The position numbers were made by a program, and so were the translations under genes. Shown here piece by piece: positions 47,286-57,957 of a DNA stretch of 64,000 nt. Origin of the DNA: Gemmatimonadota bacterium (GTDB taxonomy: Bacteria; Gemmatimonadota; Gemmatimonadetes; Longimicrobiales; Gaopeijiaceae); assembly GCA_022823225.1 (NCBI GenBank), contig JAJDXM010000057.1, positions 1 through 64,000 on the forward strand, in the 5' to 3' direction. The notes beneath the pieces are model-generated. The model worked only from the letters and a program-made list of their open reading frames with translations. It was not told where the DNA came from and searched no databases. The first letter of the stretch is position 1, and each line of letters begins with the position of its first letter.

Positions 47286-48818
47286 ATGGCATCCTACGAT
47301 TGGATCGATCTCGACAGCGACGGAGGATACGATCGTCTCAGGCAAACGCTGGACCCGGAATTCGGTCCCGAACGGATTGTCCCGCACCTTGAGGAGCAGC
47401 TAACGACAGCCGCAAAGGGTGTGCTTGTGGAGCACGGCTATGTCGACAAAGACTACCGCAGCACCTTCTACAATTTCTACGCAAAGAAGGGGCGCCTATA
47501 CCAACCTGACTGCGTCCGGCTGCATTTTTTTGACGAAACAGTGCGGTATGATGAAGTAAGCGCGAACATCGTATGCCATGACCACCGACCATGCGACCAC
47601 TACTTTGGGTACATCGTCTTGCGGCCCACTTTAGTTGCCACGTTGGGGCGCTCGCTGCTTTCGCCAGACATTCGTAAAGGCGCGCGCGGCAGCGCAATCC
47701 AGTCTGTTCATTTCGCCAACCTCCTTGGTCATAGACTACCCGTATGGGGATTTCCTTCCATGGCTCAGCACGTGGATATTGCCGTGTGCGCACACGTATC
47801 GTGTTGGGCGATTCTCAGATACTACAGCGAAACATTCTCTCAGCATCGGGAATACCTTATCCACGACATTACAAAGCTGGCAGCCCCCTTTGACCCAGGC
47901 GGACTGCTGCCATCGCTAGGCTTCAGTGTTCTTGAAGCCGAGCGAGTTTTTCAGGCTGCCGGTTGCTTTCCGCTGTTAGTCGGAAGGCCCGAACCCTCTT
48001 CTAGCGCCTCTGACTTAGCGTTTTTCTCGCAATTGCTGGCATATCTGGAATCGGGGTTTCCACTGTTCGTCGAGATTGAAAGCAAAGCGCATGCCGTAGT
48101 TGTCGTCGGCCACAACTGGAAACAACCGGCAGAGTCGCCGCCCGCTTTGGCGTCACATGGCTGGACGCAAGTGGAGACGCTGATGACCATTGACGACAAT
48201 CTGCTTCCCTACGCCACAGTTCCGTTGGACTCGACCGGGACAACGTCGGCATCCCCGGGATACACTGCTGACTTGTTCACGTCGTTTATCGTTGCATTGC
48301 CCGAGAAGATCTGCTATCCAGCCGACGCGATTGAGGTATACAGCCGAACGCTAAAGGGAGTGTTGGAACGCGCACGCAGACCCAACCAAGAGGCGCTGGA
48401 GTTGCAGCGTTACTTTATCACGACGATCGCGAGGCTGCGAGAGCATGCTCGTGAGCATCAGACCTTCTTGGGTGACAACCTAGTTGATCTCATTATGCAT
48501 TTGGACACCGCCCAGTTTGTGTGGATTATCGAGTATGGCAGTGTAGCGCAATGGAACGAAAAGAAGGTTGCCGCGAGGGCCATCGTGGACGCAACCGCGA
48601 GTCCACGGGATCTCGAACCGATCTGGCTACTCCACGACGAAGAAGTCGCCCACGTTTTCGATCGCTCCTCAGCAGAGACCAACAATCCAATGTCTATTGC
48701 ACTTGACCGCGGAGGCGGGCCTCTACCGCGCATCGAATTGAATCTGCGCCCGGTAGTGCCCTCCCGAACAGGTACAGACGATAGCGCAGCAACCTCGGCA
48801 CGCGGAGGCGACCAATGA
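47286..48818 (+). CDS. Putative papain-like cysteine peptidase
   Basis: A 510-residue protein I do not recognise as a named family. The likely catalytic centre is QHVDIAVCAHVSCWA at residues 161-175, where Cys168 or Cys173 could be the nucleophile. It is followed by SKAHAVVVVGHNW (His, about 264-276) and MTIDDNL (Asp/Asn, about 298-304), the order expected of papain/C39-like peptidases. Base composition is visibly lower in GC than in the genes to the left, which suggests transfer. It overlaps the next gene as ATGA and faces the ubiquitin-like operon, so a role as a processing or deconjugating peptidase is an attractive guess. Confidence 0.55.
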   Translation: MASYDWIDLDSDGGYDRLRQTLDPEFGPERIVPHLEEQLTTAAKGVLVEHGYVDKDYRSTFYNFYAKKGRLYQPDCVRLHFFDETVRYDEVSANIVCHDHRPCDHYFGYIVLRPTLVATLGRSLLSPDIRKGARGSAIQSVHFANLLGHRLPVWGFPSMAQHVDIAVCAHVSCWAILRYYSETFSQHREYLIHDITKLAAPFDPGGLLPSLGFSVLEAERVFQAAGCFPLLVGRPEPSSSASDLAFFSQLLAYLESGFPLFVEIESKAHAVVVVGHNWKQPAESPPALASHGWTQVETLMTIDDNLLPYATVPLDSTGTTSASPGYTADLFTSFIVALPEKICYPADAIEVYSRTLKGVLERARRPNQEALELQRYFITTIARLREHAREHQTFLGDNLVDLIMHLDTAQFVWIIEYGSVAQWNEKKVAARAIVDATASPRDLEPIWLLHDEEVAHVFDRSSAETNNPMSIALDRGGGPLPRIELNLRPVVPSRTGTDDSAATSARGGDQ

Positions 48819-49015
48819 ACCGAAGGCTCAAGGACCATTTGCGGAAGCGCACGCCTGCGACAGGCGACCGTGAGATGTTCGAGGAGTTGCGGCGCGAGAT
48901 GAAGAAGGCCGTACCGGAGATTGCGGAAAGCATCAGAGCCCGGGAGGCACTTGCGGCCAAGTTGCGAATCGCGGCTTCGAAGCCATCACGGTCCACGGAG
49001 CAGGAGCAAGACTAG
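48815..49015 (+). CDS. Small charged helical protein
   Basis: A 66-residue, highly charged and probably all-helical product (MFEELRREMKKAVPEIAE). Its ATG overlaps the stop of the peptidase-like gene, so it is cotranslated with it. Its end overlaps the end of the convergent XRE gene by four bases. No family is recognised; a partner or inhibitor of the peptidase is possible. Confidence 0.55.
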   Translation: MNRRLKDHLRKRTPATGDREMFEELRREMKKAVPEIAESIRAREALAAKLRIAASKPSRSTEQEQD

Positions 49016-49371
49016 GAATCCGGCGACTGCCGCCTGAGTCTCTCATAGGCCGTCTTAATGATGGCTGCCAGAGCATCGGCGCTAGGCTCATCCAGGTTGG
49101 GATCGGCCCGAAGGAGTCTGGATACGGTCACCACGGGTTCGGGATCGTGTTTCGGTGCGCTCGTGAAATCCACGGGGTTTACGCCCGACCATGCGGCCAA
49201 CGCGGTTAGGCTGGCGGCATCCGGGTGCCTACCCTTGGACATTCTGGATAGCGTCGACTGGGATACGCCCGTCTGCTCGCTCACTTTCTTCCAGCTGATT
49301 CCGCGTGCGGCCACGGTGGCGCTTAGTGCCCTGTAGAATGCGTCAAAGTCGAAATTCCCACGCTGAGTCAT
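49012..49371 (-). CDS. XRE-family regulator
   Basis: A 119-residue protein with a Cro/C1 helix-turn-helix at about residues 25-60 (WKKVSEQTGVSQSTLSRMSK) and a helical tail. It follows the E1-JAB gene on the same strand after 93 bases and may be the last gene of that operon. The inverted repeat over the operon promoter at 51565-51580 is a candidate binding site. Confidence 0.8.
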   Translation of the reverse strand: MTQRGNFDFDAFYRALSATVAARGISWKKVSEQTGVSQSTLSRMSKGRHPDAASLTALAAWSGVNPVDFTSAPKHDPEPVVTVSRLLRADPNLDEPSADALAAIIKTAYERLRRQSPDS

Positions 49372-49464: not shown

Positions 49465-50832
49465 TCACCCCTCCAAGACAGGTAAGTCGAGCGCATCGCC
49501 CATGGCAAGCCTTTGGACGCACTCCGTGCATTCACGGTCCCGGCGTGGTACAACCCGTTCGATCTTATCGCGATCGAAGTGGAAATGCAGGTAGTTCGCG
49601 TCTACGCCACGCGATCTGAGGCCAAGGAAATCGAACAGGAAGTCATTGACCGCATGGGCAGCAGCGACCGCGTTCAACGTTATCACGCTGGGGTTGGGCT
49701 CCTGCACCCCGTACGCCTGCTCCTTCCGTTCCTCGTCGGACTTCGCTTCGATCGCGAGCGAAGTCGAATCGATCAGACCGTTGCACCATAGGCAGCCGAT
49801 GCCTGGTCTGATGTGCCGCACGGCAGACATGGCATCCTCAAGCCTGCCCGCGTTGCCAGGGCGGATCTTCGCGCCCATCTGTATCACGGGAATGAGGTAT
49901 TGGTGGGCGAGCGCGTTCACAACAAGTCTGGCGCGCATCGAGTCGGCGGCCAGGAAGATGAAGTCGCAATCTCGCAGTACTCGCGCGACGGACCCAACCG
50001 CGACATCCCCGGCGATCGGGAACAACTTGGCATCCACTGCCATCTCGCGAGCATGCCGAATGGCGATCTGAGTCTTGAGTTGTCTCGTCTCGACATCGAC
50101 ACGAGTCGCGCCGACCACACGTGAGAGATTGCTGCTCTCGATTCTGTCCTGGTCGATTAGAATGAGGTTGCCGACGCCGAGGCGGGCTAGCCATTCCGCG
50201 ACCAGTGACCCGATGCCGCCGAGCCCGACGACGGCGATCTTGCTCGCGCGCAGGATCTGCTGTCCGGCCGCACCAAACATGCGCACCTGACGATCGTGTG
50301 CCGCATCCGAATCGCGCTCTTCGACCGGCCTGGAGTTGAATCTGGTGATTCCTTGGCCCACGACGCTGTAGCTTCCCAGCGTTCGGCGGCTCCCGTCCGC
50401 CAACCAAATATCAGCCGCAACCGACCGCCTTCCGTACACCAAGGCGCCAACCGGGACACCGCGGCCGATGTCGAGTAGGGCAGGATAGCCTCGCTCATGC
50501 GACTCGATGTCGATGAGGCTGAAGTCCACATGCCGGTCGCGATCGTGATTGTGGATCGCCAGGTACGCAAGACCCGAATCCCGGCACCGGATAATCTCCC
50601 GGTGAATGAAGGTCGGCGCGAGCGCCCGGTAGCCGTACTGGCCGGGCACGTAATCGGTGCCGAACCGGGCCGGTTCGACGTGTTGCACGAGCAGCCGAAG
50701 GGAAGCCCCACTACGCACGACGCCCGCACTCAGGATCGCGCCGTGTTCATCCCGGTCCCCTGGGAATAGGTGCTCCATGATCTGCTGGTGGAGTCCGGCA
50801 GGGACCAGGATGTCACACTTCTTACGGTTCAT
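49465..50832 (-). CDS. JAB (MPN) - ThiF/E1 fusion protein
   Basis: A 455-residue two-domain protein. The N-terminal JAB metallopeptidase has Glu in DEHGAIL (about 28), HNH near 94-96 and SLID eight residues later, close to the JAMM pattern but one residue longer. The C-terminal ThiF/E1 adenylation domain has VVGLGGIGS (about 199-207), LILIDQD and two Cys pairs, CLWC and CTEC, that should bind zinc. The loop before SVITLN, where a thioester Cys would lie, has none. It would activate and also trim or remove the Ubl. The ATG overlaps the E2-like stop. Confidence 0.85.
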   Translation of the reverse strand: MNRKKCDILVPAGLHQQIMEHLFPGDRDEHGAILSAGVVRSGASLRLLVQHVEPARFGTDYVPGQYGYRALAPTFIHREIIRCRDSGLAYLAIHNHDRDRHVDFSLIDIESHERGYPALLDIGRGVPVGALVYGRRSVAADIWLADGSRRTLGSYSVVGQGITRFNSRPVEERDSDAAHDRQVRMFGAAGQQILRASKIAVVGLGGIGSLVAEWLARLGVGNLILIDQDRIESSNLSRVVGATRVDVETRQLKTQIAIRHAREMAVDAKLFPIAGDVAVGSVARVLRDCDFIFLAADSMRARLVVNALAHQYLIPVIQMGAKIRPGNAGRLEDAMSAVRHIRPGIGCLWCNGLIDSTSLAIEAKSDEERKEQAYGVQEPNPSVITLNAVAAAHAVNDFLFDFLGLRSRGVDANYLHFHFDRDKIERVVPRRDRECTECVQRLAMGDALDLPVLEG

Positions 50833-51239
50833 GGCAGTTCTTCCAGGAAATGCAGGACCTTCACGAACTTCGCCACGGCGGTCTGCGGATGGTTCTGGGC
50901 GCGGTTGTTGCGTCTCGAGATCTGTAGCGCCGGACGCCCGAGAAAATGTGCACCTCCGGTGATCGGCACCGCAAACGCCACGCCATCCACGCGACGCACC
51001 CGGTCACTGATGAACAGCGGATAGATATCGGCGTACGGGTGGAGGGCCGTGATACGGCCCCCAACCCATGTCGACGACGGTTCGTACCGATCCCCGATCT
51101 CGACGTCCTCGACGATCACGAAGGCGCCGCCGCTTCCGTCCTCCTCGGTGTACACGTCCGAGGAGGGAAACGCCTTTTTCAGCTCCTCGATTGCGTTCGC
51201 GACTGCCTGCTTCACCAGTGTGCCCCTAGCTGTTGTCAT
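50829..51239 (-). CDS. E2-like (UBC fold) protein without cysteine
   Basis: A 136-residue protein in the position and of the size of prokaryotic E2-like proteins, with the typical HPYADIYPLFISD block (about 67-79) and a following GGAHF. The whole protein contains no cysteine, so it cannot form an E2 thioester and may be a scaffold. It overlaps the Ubl gene by 14 bases and the E1-JAB gene by four. Confidence 0.7.
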   Translation of the reverse strand: MTTARGTLVKQAVANAIEELKKAFPSSDVYTEEDGSGGAFVIVEDVEIGDRYEPSSTWVGGRITALHPYADIYPLFISDRVRRVDGVAFAVPITGGAHFLGRPALQISRRNNRAQNHPQTAVAKFVKVLHFLEELP

Positions 51240-51495
51240 CCGCCGCGATGGCGGTGAAGGCGAGGTGTTCGGTCAAAGGTACCTTGTCGTCGTCGCCGAT
51301 CACCTTGCTTGATCCGTTCGGCAGCTGGACCTGCAGAACGAAGTTCACCTGAATGTTGACACCCTGCTTGATCGCCGCCTCCTTGACCTCAAGTCCGGTC
51401 GCCGGGCCAGCCGGCATCTCGACCTTGTGATCGTTGACTTCGATGATGACGGTCTTCACCGTCAGGACCTCGGGCGTGGCGTCTCTCACTGTCAT
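51226..51495 (-). CDS. Ubiquitin-like (multiubiquitin-type) protein
   Basis: An 89-residue protein with a single beta-grasp domain of the bacterial multiubiquitin type: VIIEVNDHKVEMP, TGLEVKEAAIKQG, FVLQVQLPNG, then VPLTEHLAFTAIA. The C terminus is DDNS, with no diglycine. It opens a tightly overlapping operon with the E2-like and E1-JAB genes. ATG 51495 has AAGGAGG five bases upstream and a near-consensus promoter. Family knowledge says such loci form ubiquitin-like conjugation systems; the function here is unknown. Confidence 0.82.
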   Translation of the reverse strand: MTVRDATPEVLTVKTVIIEVNDHKVEMPAGPATGLEVKEAAIKQGVNIQVNFVLQVQLPNGSSKVIGDDDKVPLTEHLAFTAIAADDNS

Positions 51496-51536
51496 CTCTG
51501 CCTCCTTAGCAGGAACGGTTTTCCCATCGGAGCCGA

Positions 51537-51580
51537 ATCCTAACGATTGCGACTTCGGATGTCAATTGCTGACTAGCAAT
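51537..51580 (-). promoter_or_regulatory. Promoter and probable operator of the ubiquitin-like operon
   Basis: On the minus strand TTGACA (51560-51565) is followed after exactly 17 bases by TAGGAT (51537-51542). Upstream of the -35 box lies the inverted repeat ATTGCT-GACT-AGCAAT (51565-51580), a likely repressor site. The remaining bases up to 51800 show nothing else. Confidence 0.75.
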
Positions 51581-51800: not shown

Positions 51801-52505
51801 ATGCCGATCACCCATTCCAGAGCATGCGGTTTCGGTGGTCCGCTGGTGAACTCGCTGGCGACCGGGAAAAAGCTCCCGTCCTACATCGGATCGGGGACCT
51901 TCGCGTCGGCGCTCGTGGACCTGCTCGCCCACGGGGAGGAGGACCAGGCGGCCAATTTGGTCCGCAGAGCCAGCGACGCCCCCGAGCTCGAACGGGCAAT
52001 ACGCGCGTTGAGCAGGTCGGGAGCGAAGACGGTGGCCGACCTTCGGACCGAGATCGCCGTCTGGTTCGACGACAGCATGAACCGTGTGTCCGGCTGGTAC
52101 CGTCGTCAGACGCAGTTGATCATCTTCATCATCGGAGCCTTCGTCACCGTGTTCGCAAACGCGAGCACCGTCCACGTCGCGCGGGACCTCTGGAAGGACG
52201 ACGCCATGCGGTACTCCGTCGCCCAAGAGGCGATCTCGCTGGCGTCCACGACCCAGAGCCCCGGCTCGCTGCAGGACCCGGACTCTCTTCTCCACTCATT
52301 CCCGGCGGGCTGGGAGGACGAAGACCCGTTCGGCTGGAGGGAAGCGGTCCCGGACTGGTCTTGGGGGACTTGGCTCGCGCATCTGATGGGGTGAGTCCTT
52401 ACCGCCGCCGCCGTTTCGCTCGGCGCGCCGTTCTCGTTCGACCTTCTGAGCCGGGTGGCGAAGCTGCGGGGGACGGGGAGACGGCCGGAGGGGGCGGCGG
52501 GCTAG
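51801..52505 (+). pseudogene. Membrane protein with a nonsense codon, paralogue 1
   Basis: The product shares PSYIGSGTFASALVDLLAHG, WFDDSMNRVSGWYRRQTQ and a transmembrane helix (LIIFIIGAFVTVFANAS) with the gene at 56475. At 52392-52394 it has TGA where the paralogue has TGG (Trp). Beyond it the same frame continues for 36 codons (LTAAAVSLGAPFSFDLLSR), the second transmembrane helix, to TAG at 52503. The N-terminal membrane region expected in this family is also missing, so the gene is damaged at both ends. Confidence 0.75.
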
Positions 52506-55506: not shown

Positions 55507-56478
55507 ATGAGATGGATCTTCGCAGTGCTCGCCGCCGTTACGTTGACCGCCACCGCATGCACGGACGGGTTCGTGCTTGAACCTCTAGTCGGCCCGGCCG
55601 GCGATCCTCTCACCTCGGCCACGGCAGACGACTGTCCGCCCTACATCGAGATCTGCGGCCCGGTCGACCCAGGCGGCGGCGGCAGCACCTCGCTGCCCAT
55701 CGACGTTGCGAACGGATGGAACGGCGCGGACTGCCGGAACACTTCGATGGGTGGTGGGGATTCTGACGGCGACGGCCTGAACGACAGGTGCGAATTCGAT
55801 GTGGCCCATGCCTTCGCCCCGGTCCTGAAGTTCGATCCCGGCGACGACACAACCCGCGACGAATACTATGTCGTCATGCCCGGCAGCGGGTCGAGAATCA
55901 TGATCTTCTACGCCTTCGGGTATCATAGGGATCACGGGTACGCCTTCGGGCTGGGCTCCCATAACGGCGACTCCGAGTTCCTCGTGTTCGAGACCTTCCC
56001 GCCCACGGACAACAACGACCCGTGGCGCCTGAGCCGGGCCTACCTTTCCGCGCACCGTGGCGAGACCTTCGCCGGCAACGATGTCGACTCGTCCGTGCTC
56101 GTCTTCGGCAGCACGCTGCAGACGGGCTGGGAGGGCCGTCCACTCATATGGGTCGCGAAGAACAAGCACGCGAACTACGTGTCGCAGATCGCGTGCGATA
56201 GCGGCGCCGGCACGCTCGACGACTGCGACAACAACACGGTCACCGGCTGGTTTTGGGTGTACGAGAACGGCAACCTCGGCCAAAGCGACAGCCGCACGTA
56301 CGACCGGGCCGGCTGTGCCGTGCCCAGCCGGTCCATCAGCAACGAGCGGGAGTGCTACTGGGAATGGGGTCACAAGTTCCTCGGTTGGCAGGAGTGGGAC
56401 GGAAAGGGCTCGACCAGCTACCACTACCTGCTGAGCGACTTCGGCTTCGACGGCGATGAGGCCCACATCAACGGTTGA
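55507..56478 (+). CDS. Lipoprotein of unknown function
   Basis: A 323-residue exported protein with the lipobox TATAC (about residues 14-18). The mature part has a Ser/Gly-rich linker, an Asp-rich segment (GGGDSDGDGLNDRCEFD) of the calcium-binding thrombospondin-3-like type, then a beta-rich domain with HRDHGYAFGLGSHNGDSE and WEGRPLIWVAKNKHANYV, reminiscent of Vps62/NPP1-like folds. Six or more cysteines could form disulphides. GGGAGG seven bases before the ATG supports the start. Function unknown. Confidence 0.72.
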   Translation: MRWIFAVLAAVTLTATACTDGFVLEPLVGPAGDPLTSATADDCPPYIEICGPVDPGGGGSTSLPIDVANGWNGADCRNTSMGGGDSDGDGLNDRCEFDVAHAFAPVLKFDPGDDTTRDEYYVVMPGSGSRIMIFYAFGYHRDHGYAFGLGSHNGDSEFLVFETFPPTDNNDPWRLSRAYLSAHRGETFAGNDVDSSVLVFGSTLQTGWEGRPLIWVAKNKHANYVSQIACDSGAGTLDDCDNNTVTGWFWVYENGNLGQSDSRTYDRAGCAVPSRSISNERECYWEWGHKFLGWQEWDGKGSTSYHYLLSDFGFDGDEAHING

Positions 56479-57242
56479 TACGCCGTCCGCCACTAGTTTA
56501 CGCGGCCAAGCTCTACGACCATCCGCTGGTGAGCACGCTGGCGACCGAGAAGAAGCTGCCGTCCTACATCGGGTCCGGAACGTTCGCATCGGCACTCGTG
56601 GACCTGCTCGCCCACGGCGAGGAGGGCCAGTCCGCTGCGGACACCGAAGACGACCAGTCCAACGCGGACACCAAGGACAGAGCGGCGCAGTTGATCCGCA
56701 GTGTGAGCCGCGACCCCGTACTCGGACGGGCCCTGCGTGCGTTGAGCAGCACCGGGGCCGAGACGGTGGCTGAGCTCCGAACCGAAATCGCCGCATGGTT
56801 CGACGATGGCATGAACCGCGTCTCCGGCTGGTACCGAAGGCAAACACAGTGGATCATCTTCGCTATCGGAGCGGGTGTCACGCTGTTCGCAAACGCGAGC
56901 ACGCTCCATGTGGCGGGCGACCTATGGCGGGACGACATGCTTCGCTACTCCGTTGCTCAGGAGACGGTGTCGATGGCGTCCACGACGCCGAGCCCCGACT
57001 CGCTGCAGGCTTCGGAAGCTCTCCTCGCGTCATTCCCCGTGGGATGGGAGGACGAAGACCCGTTGGGCATCAGGGAAGGGGTGCCGGACTGGTCTTGCGG
57101 GACTTGGTTCGCACACCTGATGGGGTGGATCCTGACGGCCGCAGCCGTTTCGCTCGGCGCGCCGTTCTGGTTCGATCTCCTGGGCCGGGTGGCGAAGTTG
57201 CGGGGCACGGGGAAGCGGCCAGCAGCCGGGCCAACGGGATAA
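56475..57242 (+). CDS. Membrane protein, paralogue 2 (N-terminally shortened)
   Basis: A 255-residue product whose frame overlaps the end of the lipoprotein gene; the TTG at 56475 has no ribosome site and the true start is doubtful. It keeps LPSYIGSGTFASALVDLLAH, WFDDGMNRVSGWYRRQTQ, one transmembrane helix (WIIFAIGAGVTLFANA) and the C-terminal helix (WILTAAAVSLGAPFWFDLLG) that paralogue 1 lost to a stop. The N-terminal membrane segment of the family is absent. The IS481 remnant begins directly after its stop. Confidence 0.6.
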   Translation: MIRRPPLVYAAKLYDHPLVSTLATEKKLPSYIGSGTFASALVDLLAHGEEGQSAADTEDDQSNADTKDRAAQLIRSVSRDPVLGRALRALSSTGAETVAELRTEIAAWFDDGMNRVSGWYRRQTQWIIFAIGAGVTLFANASTLHVAGDLWRDDMLRYSVAQETVSMASTTPSPDSLQASEALLASFPVGWEDEDPLGIREGVPDWSCGTWFAHLMGWILTAAAVSLGAPFWFDLLGRVAKLRGTGKRPAAGPTG

Positions 57243-57264: not shown

Positions 57265-57957
57265 GTGAGGCTGGAAGAGACGGTCCGGAAGAGGAAGATG
57301 AAGCTGACCGAGGAGCAGATCCAGGCGCTGGAGCGCTTCGACCCCGAGTACCGCGAGCGACACATCCAGGTGGGCGCCACGGGCGAGCTGGTGGCCGTGG
57401 ACACCTTCTTCGCGGGCACGCTGAAGGGGGTGGGCAAGGTCTACATCCAGACCGTGCTGGACTGCTTCAGCCGCTTCGTCTGGGCCCGGCTGTACACCTC
57501 GAAGATGCCGGTGACCGCCGTTCAGGTTCTGAACAACCACGCACTGCCGTTCTTCGAGAAGCACGCCGTGAAGGTCCAGACGATCCTGAGCGACAACGGC
57601 CGCGAGTACTGCGGCAGGCCGGACAAGCACCCCTACGAGCTCTTCCTGCAGCTCGAGGAGATCGAACACCGCACCACGAAGGTCGGCAGGCCCCAGTCGA
57701 ACGGCTTCATCGAGCGCTTCCACCGCACGCTCCTCGAAGAGCACCTCCGGATCAAGGGTCGAACGACCTGGTACGAAGCGCTCGACGAAACGCGGAAGGA
57801 CCTGGACGGCCATCTTGAGACCTACAACACCCGCAGGCCTCACCGCGGCCGAGGGATGGAGGGCAGAACGCCCTACGAGGTATTCAAGGCCGGGATCCCG
57901 CGAAAGCGGCGCACCCGGAAGCCCTCAGCCAGAAAGGAGGTCACGACCGCAGCGTAG
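57265..57957 (+). pseudogene. IS481-type transposase, N-terminally truncated
   Basis: A 230-residue DDE integrase domain: GELVAVDTFFAG (first Asp), ILSDNGREYCG (second Asp), then QSNGFIERFHRTLLEEH (Glu) and HRGRGMEGRTPYEVF at the end. The N-terminal DNA-binding half is missing: the frame meets a stop at 57244, where the membrane-protein gene also ends. The element is a 3' fragment and is followed by two copies of a likely terminal repeat. Confidence 0.82.

Follow-up and report, generated by a model that had tools for sequence, protein, structure and literature searches.

Ubiquitin-like conjugation is generally described as working through glycine ends and cysteine thioesters. For the bacterial Bub system, a 2026 paper on the mechanism by Ye et al. 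is said to report ester, not thioester, intermediates, and this paper may already describe part of the system considered here. Operons of this kind were described as type 6E by Iyer, Burroughs and Aravind in 2006 (PMC1779556), whose type 6E section places a cysteine-less E2-like gene, termed inactive, between the genes for a ubiquitin-like protein (Ubl) and a JAB-E1 protein. Later work cites the name Bub together with a set of 544 operons and, in the passage on phage, states that protection by Bub has not been demonstrated (PMC13373217).

We analysed a 64,000-nt window of contig JAJDXM010000057.1 (assembly GCA_022823225.1) from a Gemmatimonadota bacterium (Gaopeijiaceae); "the window" denotes this whole stretch. 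Positions 49465-51495 carry genes for a Ubl, an E2-like protein and a JAB-E1 fusion, all three on the minus strand. On its sequence, this operon is a variant form of type 6E, now Bub. Like the operons in the type 6E section of PMC1779556, which have a Ubl with one to three repeats, a cysteine-less E2-like gene in the middle and the JAB domain N-terminal on the E1, it keeps this arrangement, whereas a conserved acidic terminus ending in serine is not among the features described in that section. The Bub operon of Citrobacter (BubA, BubB and BubCD; PDB 9EA4, 9EA5, 9EA8, 9EAE and 9EAV; Ye et al.) shares the JAB-E1 fusion, and the two operons are alike in having a Ubl, a serine-bearing E2-like protein and no cysteine in the E1 loop. 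However, the Citrobacter Ubl is multi-domain, is encoded in one gene with the E2-like part and ends at glycine in its PDB chains, whereas the window Ubl is a single free domain that ends in DDNS. The DDNS tail in place of glycine marks a Bub variant and does not exclude the operon from type 6E or Bub.

More distant systems differ further. Bil (BilABCD) likewise combines a Ubl, an E1, an E2 and a JAMM protease in a single operon, but its E1 and E2 have catalytic cysteines and BilA exposes a C-terminal glycine (PMC11354881), and the window operon has neither. The canonical ubiquitin cascade has an E1 cysteine, an E2 cysteine and a diglycine Ubl, and the window operon possesses none of these. E1s of the MccB, ThiF and MoeB families share the ThiF-type adenylation domain with the window E1, and we know of no E2-like partner for them. 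Scans of viral contigs with the E1 found no relative, phage records held only partial ThiF-type matches, and a PF14453 search of the genome gave no match; as the controls gave none either, this search carries no weight.

Organization of the operon

The features of the locus are collected in the table below. The E2-like gene as listed would overlap the DDNS codons of the Ubl gene, but its true start is probably the GTG at 51215: a TAGGGG ribosome site lies approximately 8 nt upstream of this codon, and the nearest homologue begins at the same position. With this start, the apparent overlap vanishes. Relatives of the operon show the same gene order. In the fusion protein, the JAB domain covers approximately residues 1-165 and the E1 domain approximately residues 175-455.

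Table. Coordinates of the operon and neighbouring features in the window
Feature	Positions	Strand	Remarks
510-aa protein	47286..48818	+	Conserved Cys, His, Asp; homologues adjoin Bub operons in L001, L054, L083 and the P. aeruginosa plasmid L119
66-aa protein after papain-like gene	48815..49015	+	Weak homologue, same place, in L001
XRE-type HTH regulator	49012..49371	-	HTH_3; homologues adjoin Bub operons in L001, L054, L083, L052
JAB(JAMM)-E1 fusion	49465..50832	-	455 aa; phmmer to BubCD 9EA4; ThiF PF00899
E1 crossover loop, residues ~366-381	49690..49737	-	No Cys
E2-like protein (BubB-like)	50829..51215	-	128 aa from GTG 51215; no Cys
E2-like gene as listed	50829-51239	-	136 aa from ATG 51239; 0 Cys
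Candidate nucleophile Ser108 codon, E2-like (136-aa numbering)	50916..50918	-	Ser/Cys column in homologues
Ubl	51226..51495	-	89 aa, one Multi_ubiq beta-grasp domain; Pfam PF14452 32.6 bits (cut-off 24.5); clade alignment
DDNS codons	51229..51240	-	DNA GATGACAACAGC-TAG; stop codon 51226-51228
AAGGAGG ribosome site before Ubl	51501-51507	-	Consensus match only
Sigma-70-like promoter TTGACA-17-TAGGAT	51537..51565	-	Consensus match only

Conservation of the Ubl terminus

The initial annotation had pointed out that the Ubl ends in DDNS rather than in diglycine, and the comparison bore this out: the C terminus, FTAIAADDNS, is flush at the stop codon, and 11 of the 13 relatives in the closest clade end in exactly DDNS, the other two having DDNA (G046) and HEDS (Mesorhizobium huakuii). 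In none of the 13 does the Ubl extend past the tail motif, and most lack a glycine near the C-terminal end. The 13 loci belong to Gammaproteobacteria, Alphaproteobacteria, Actinomycetota, Cyanobacteriota, Deinococcota and the window's own class, so that the DDNS clade spans at least four phyla, and it was supported at 100/100 in an E1 tree that included 12 clade E1s. A search for further members around G042 recovered only two, both already in the set. The Ubls have otherwise diverged (33-49% identity to the window Ubl, the nearest one excepted; mean column identity across the clade 34%), and against this divergence the recurrence of DDNS is more than chance. Nor is the motif forced by gene overlap, because the E2 gene starts past the Ubl stop codon in six loci (L001, L052, L056, L057, L059 and L060). 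An origin by chance or overlap was thus ruled out: the motif is kept in these non-overlapping relatives, and the terminal serine is encoded by AGC, AGT, TCA and TCG, that is, by both the AGY and the TCN codon families. Across the sequences compared, DDNS is a clade-wide terminus, and the non-glycine end sets this clade apart within Bub.

In the other sampled clades, some tails read FG, TEG/NG or NPG and in almost every case run on into a removable stretch, either additional residues or an E2 domain fused to the Ubl; the remaining ones end flush in TPV(A/V/S) or TDxS. Six loci (L088, L089, L090, L111, L115 and L128) represent another Bub-like group, with Ubls flush in (T/A)PV(A/V/S) and no glycine. 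In four others (L033, L036, L039 and L119), a Ubl flush in TDxS occurs with an E1 that has no recognisable JAB and with a DUF6527-like cysteine-rich protein, and no E2 gene was seen in these four systems. Bub-like operons on haloarchaeal plasmids (L125, L126 and L131) have Ubl tails containing FG. In Nostoc commune SO-36 (NZ_AP025734.1, near 23982), the match to the Nostoc Ubl covers just its first 31 residues, and this copy may be broken.

The JAB-E1 fusion

The fusion matched Citrobacter BubCD (PDB 9EA4) over residues 10-400 in phmmer (E 6.6e-29), and MccB and PaaA structures were also among its sequence matches. Its cysteines lie at positions 6, 83, 289, 347, 350, 435 and 438, and those of the zinc-type pairs described by the initial annotation are 347/350 and 435/438. 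The crossover loop lacks a cysteine, as had been stated; the same holds for each of 34 related Bub-type E1s, whereas the MoeB-type E1 of the same genome, used as a control, has one in its loop (LIPNCAEAGV). The crossover loops of the DDNS, Gly and TPV groups share an invariant tyrosine, Tyr374. The JAMM residues E29, H94, H96, S105 and D108 and the adenylation residues N235, R238, K253 and D297 are invariant in the clade, in agreement with the earlier view that both motifs are intact.

Because no loop cysteine occurs in any of the 34 E1s and cysteine-less 6E E2s were already reported in 2006, the cysteine absences in E1 and E2 are, on these alignments, family traits and not special to the window operon. 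That the missing residues might be family-wide therefore held for the two cysteines and not for the DDNS end, which is limited to one clade among those sampled.

Several positions hold a single residue throughout the DDNS clade but other residues elsewhere, namely R69, H112, R114 and D141 in the JAB domain, the H112 column being Asp or Glu in all other groups. Q318, R339 and S382 are likewise fixed in the clade's E1, and Q318 is Asp in all Gly-type E1s. These residues would fit adaptation to the acidic tail, though as one evolutionary event; since the evidence on the tail comes from one clade, the JAB and E1 changes may be hitch-hiking.

A conserved serine in the E2-like protein

The E2-like protein contains no cysteine anywhere in its sequence, and here too the initial annotation was right. 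Pfam Prok-E2_E did not match it, and hhalign paired it with other Bub E2-like proteins at a probability of 97.2 (E 3.7e-11). At the column of Ser108, all 42 bacterial homologues have a serine, including chain D of PDB 9EAV (BubB), whereas the three relatives from haloarchaeal plasmids (Salinigranum, Natrinema and Natribaculum) all have a cysteine, in the context YCIH or HCIH as against bacterial WSRH or FSWH. The archaeal positions concerned are 1847-2263 (L125), 2061-2465 (L126) and 2501-2917 (L131). The column agreed in two of three alignment modes; in the third, there was a two-column offset for five FG-type bacterial proteins and an offset of a few columns for one archaeal protein. hhalign paired the archaeal cysteine with the bacterial serine at a probability of 96.6. 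It also paired the archaeal cysteine with Cys85 of UBE2D2, with WxP and PN..NPL in register, at a probability of only 4-5%, and placement on the canonical catalytic cysteine thus rests on the motif register. The UBE2D2 sequence in this profile comparison is identical to PDB 1UR6 chain A, and the UBE2D2 alignment also held two other human E2s, whose sequences we take to be correct. When bacterial Bub E2 profiles were compared directly with UBC, the alignment either covered no more than the YP core or was of no use. A Ser-to-Pro spacing equal to that of UBE2D2 was considered and dropped, since the spacing differs between clades. AF2 models, built from the window and L001 sequences only, were poor (pLDDT 52 for the E2-like protein and 37), and comparison of the E2 model (pLDDT 52) gave E2 structures at Z ~5-6, no better than CapZ, among unrelated folds, with no Bub structure among the 50 matches listed.

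Genomic neighbourhood

The genes for the HTH regulator and the 510-aa protein lie downstream of the operon. The 510-aa protein has no Pfam match, and its conserved Cys, His and Asp suggest a papain/C39-like fold. Within the stretches examined, its gene occurs in only 4 of the 13 clade loci, where it is accessory. Relatives are also found in Hymenobacter and Shewanella plasmids with no Bub genes nearby, where they adjoin a caspase-family gene and a TrlF-type ATPase, respectively; from these neighbours, the protein is perhaps a general part of conflict systems. Farther out, two more genes could be read from the sequence, one transposase-like and the other HsdS-like, and the surroundings resemble a defence island. 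The HTH neighbour suggests regulated, stress- or phage-linked expression. The paralogous genes at 51801-52394 and 56475-57242 have LPSYIGSGTFASALVDLLAHGEE in common, and the latter is followed by an integrase-like transposase gene (57265-57957).

Proposed mechanism and alternative explanations

We give nearly an even chance to the whole of the following mechanism, in which a Bub variant would activate a non-glycine C terminus and pass it on through a serine oxyester. The E1 module would adenylate the C-terminal carboxylate of the Ubl, that of the serine (rarely alanine) closing the invariant acidic tail, with no trimming first, and the activated Ubl would not be held on any E1 cysteine. It would be transferred as an oxygen ester to Ser108 of the E2-like protein, standing in for the E2 catalytic cysteine, and would then move to a target, from which the JAMM domain would take it off again, without a role in precursor maturation. 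We infer the adenylation of a serine carboxylate, the oxyester, the transfer to targets and the JAMM role from conservation. Because a serine occupies the place where ubiquitin E2s seem to have their reactive cysteine, oxygen esters are probably used and not sulfur esters. A route free of thioesters had been raised in the initial annotation, and it fits both the E1 loops and the bacterial serines; however, the absences behind it are family traits, and the E2-like protein more plausibly has a serine as its nucleophile than no nucleophile at all.

The E2-like protein could instead be an inactive RWD-like scaffold, the target amine attacking the Ubl adenylate on the E1 with no covalent carrier. 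The E1 indeed lacks a loop cysteine, some related systems consist of a Ubl-E1 pair and a DUF6527-like protein with no E2 gene, and the type 6E text of Iyer et al. 2006 (PMC1779556) terms the domain inactive. The exchange of serine and cysteine argues otherwise: a residue invariant in the 42 bacterial proteins and replaced only by cysteine in the three archaeal ones is what one would expect of a nucleophile and not of a scaffold. A dead E2-like protein is thus unlikely, and we consider the scaffold scheme rather improbable. So fixed a C-terminal motif could equally be a binding signal, and DDNS might serve as a recognition tail for the E1, JAB or E2 that is trimmed by JAB or another protease, an internal residue being activated. 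JAB residues R69, H112 and R114 change along with the acidic tail, and the Citrobacter Ubl chains stop at glycine although the gene is a BubA-BubB fusion, which suggests that in this organism a precursor of the Bub Ubl is cleaved. Against trimming in the DDNS clade stand the complete lack of residues after the motif, the scarcity of glycine near the end and the fixed flush terminus, as expected of a substrate carboxylate, and we judge this explanation improbable.

Two further schemes concern other chemistry. MccB acts on a C-terminal asparagine, and given the MccB and PaaA structures among the E1 matches, the final product might be a Ubl whose C terminus stably carries AMP or a comparable group; as this would leave the E2-like and JAMM partners, conserved throughout the clade, without a job, it is the least probable of all. 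Scarcely more credible is a missing thiol provided by the neighbouring papain-like protein, as an extra carrier or deconjugase: its gene adjoins Bub operons in four loci and its Cys, His and Asp are conserved, but most of the clade loci lack it within the stretches examined, and it also occurs apart from Bub.

As a tentative and rather less probable proposal than the serine-oxyester mechanism itself, the clade may hold a modifier whose activated and conjugated end is serine (or alanine), with an E1 and an E2 that employ no cysteine carrier and an E2 serine interchangeable with archaeal cysteine. If this is true, it would be a natural clade with the same folds, a serine terminus and a serine carrier, which would show which chemistry is optional, and its archaeal cysteine relatives would provide a ready pair for comparing serine and cysteine at one site.
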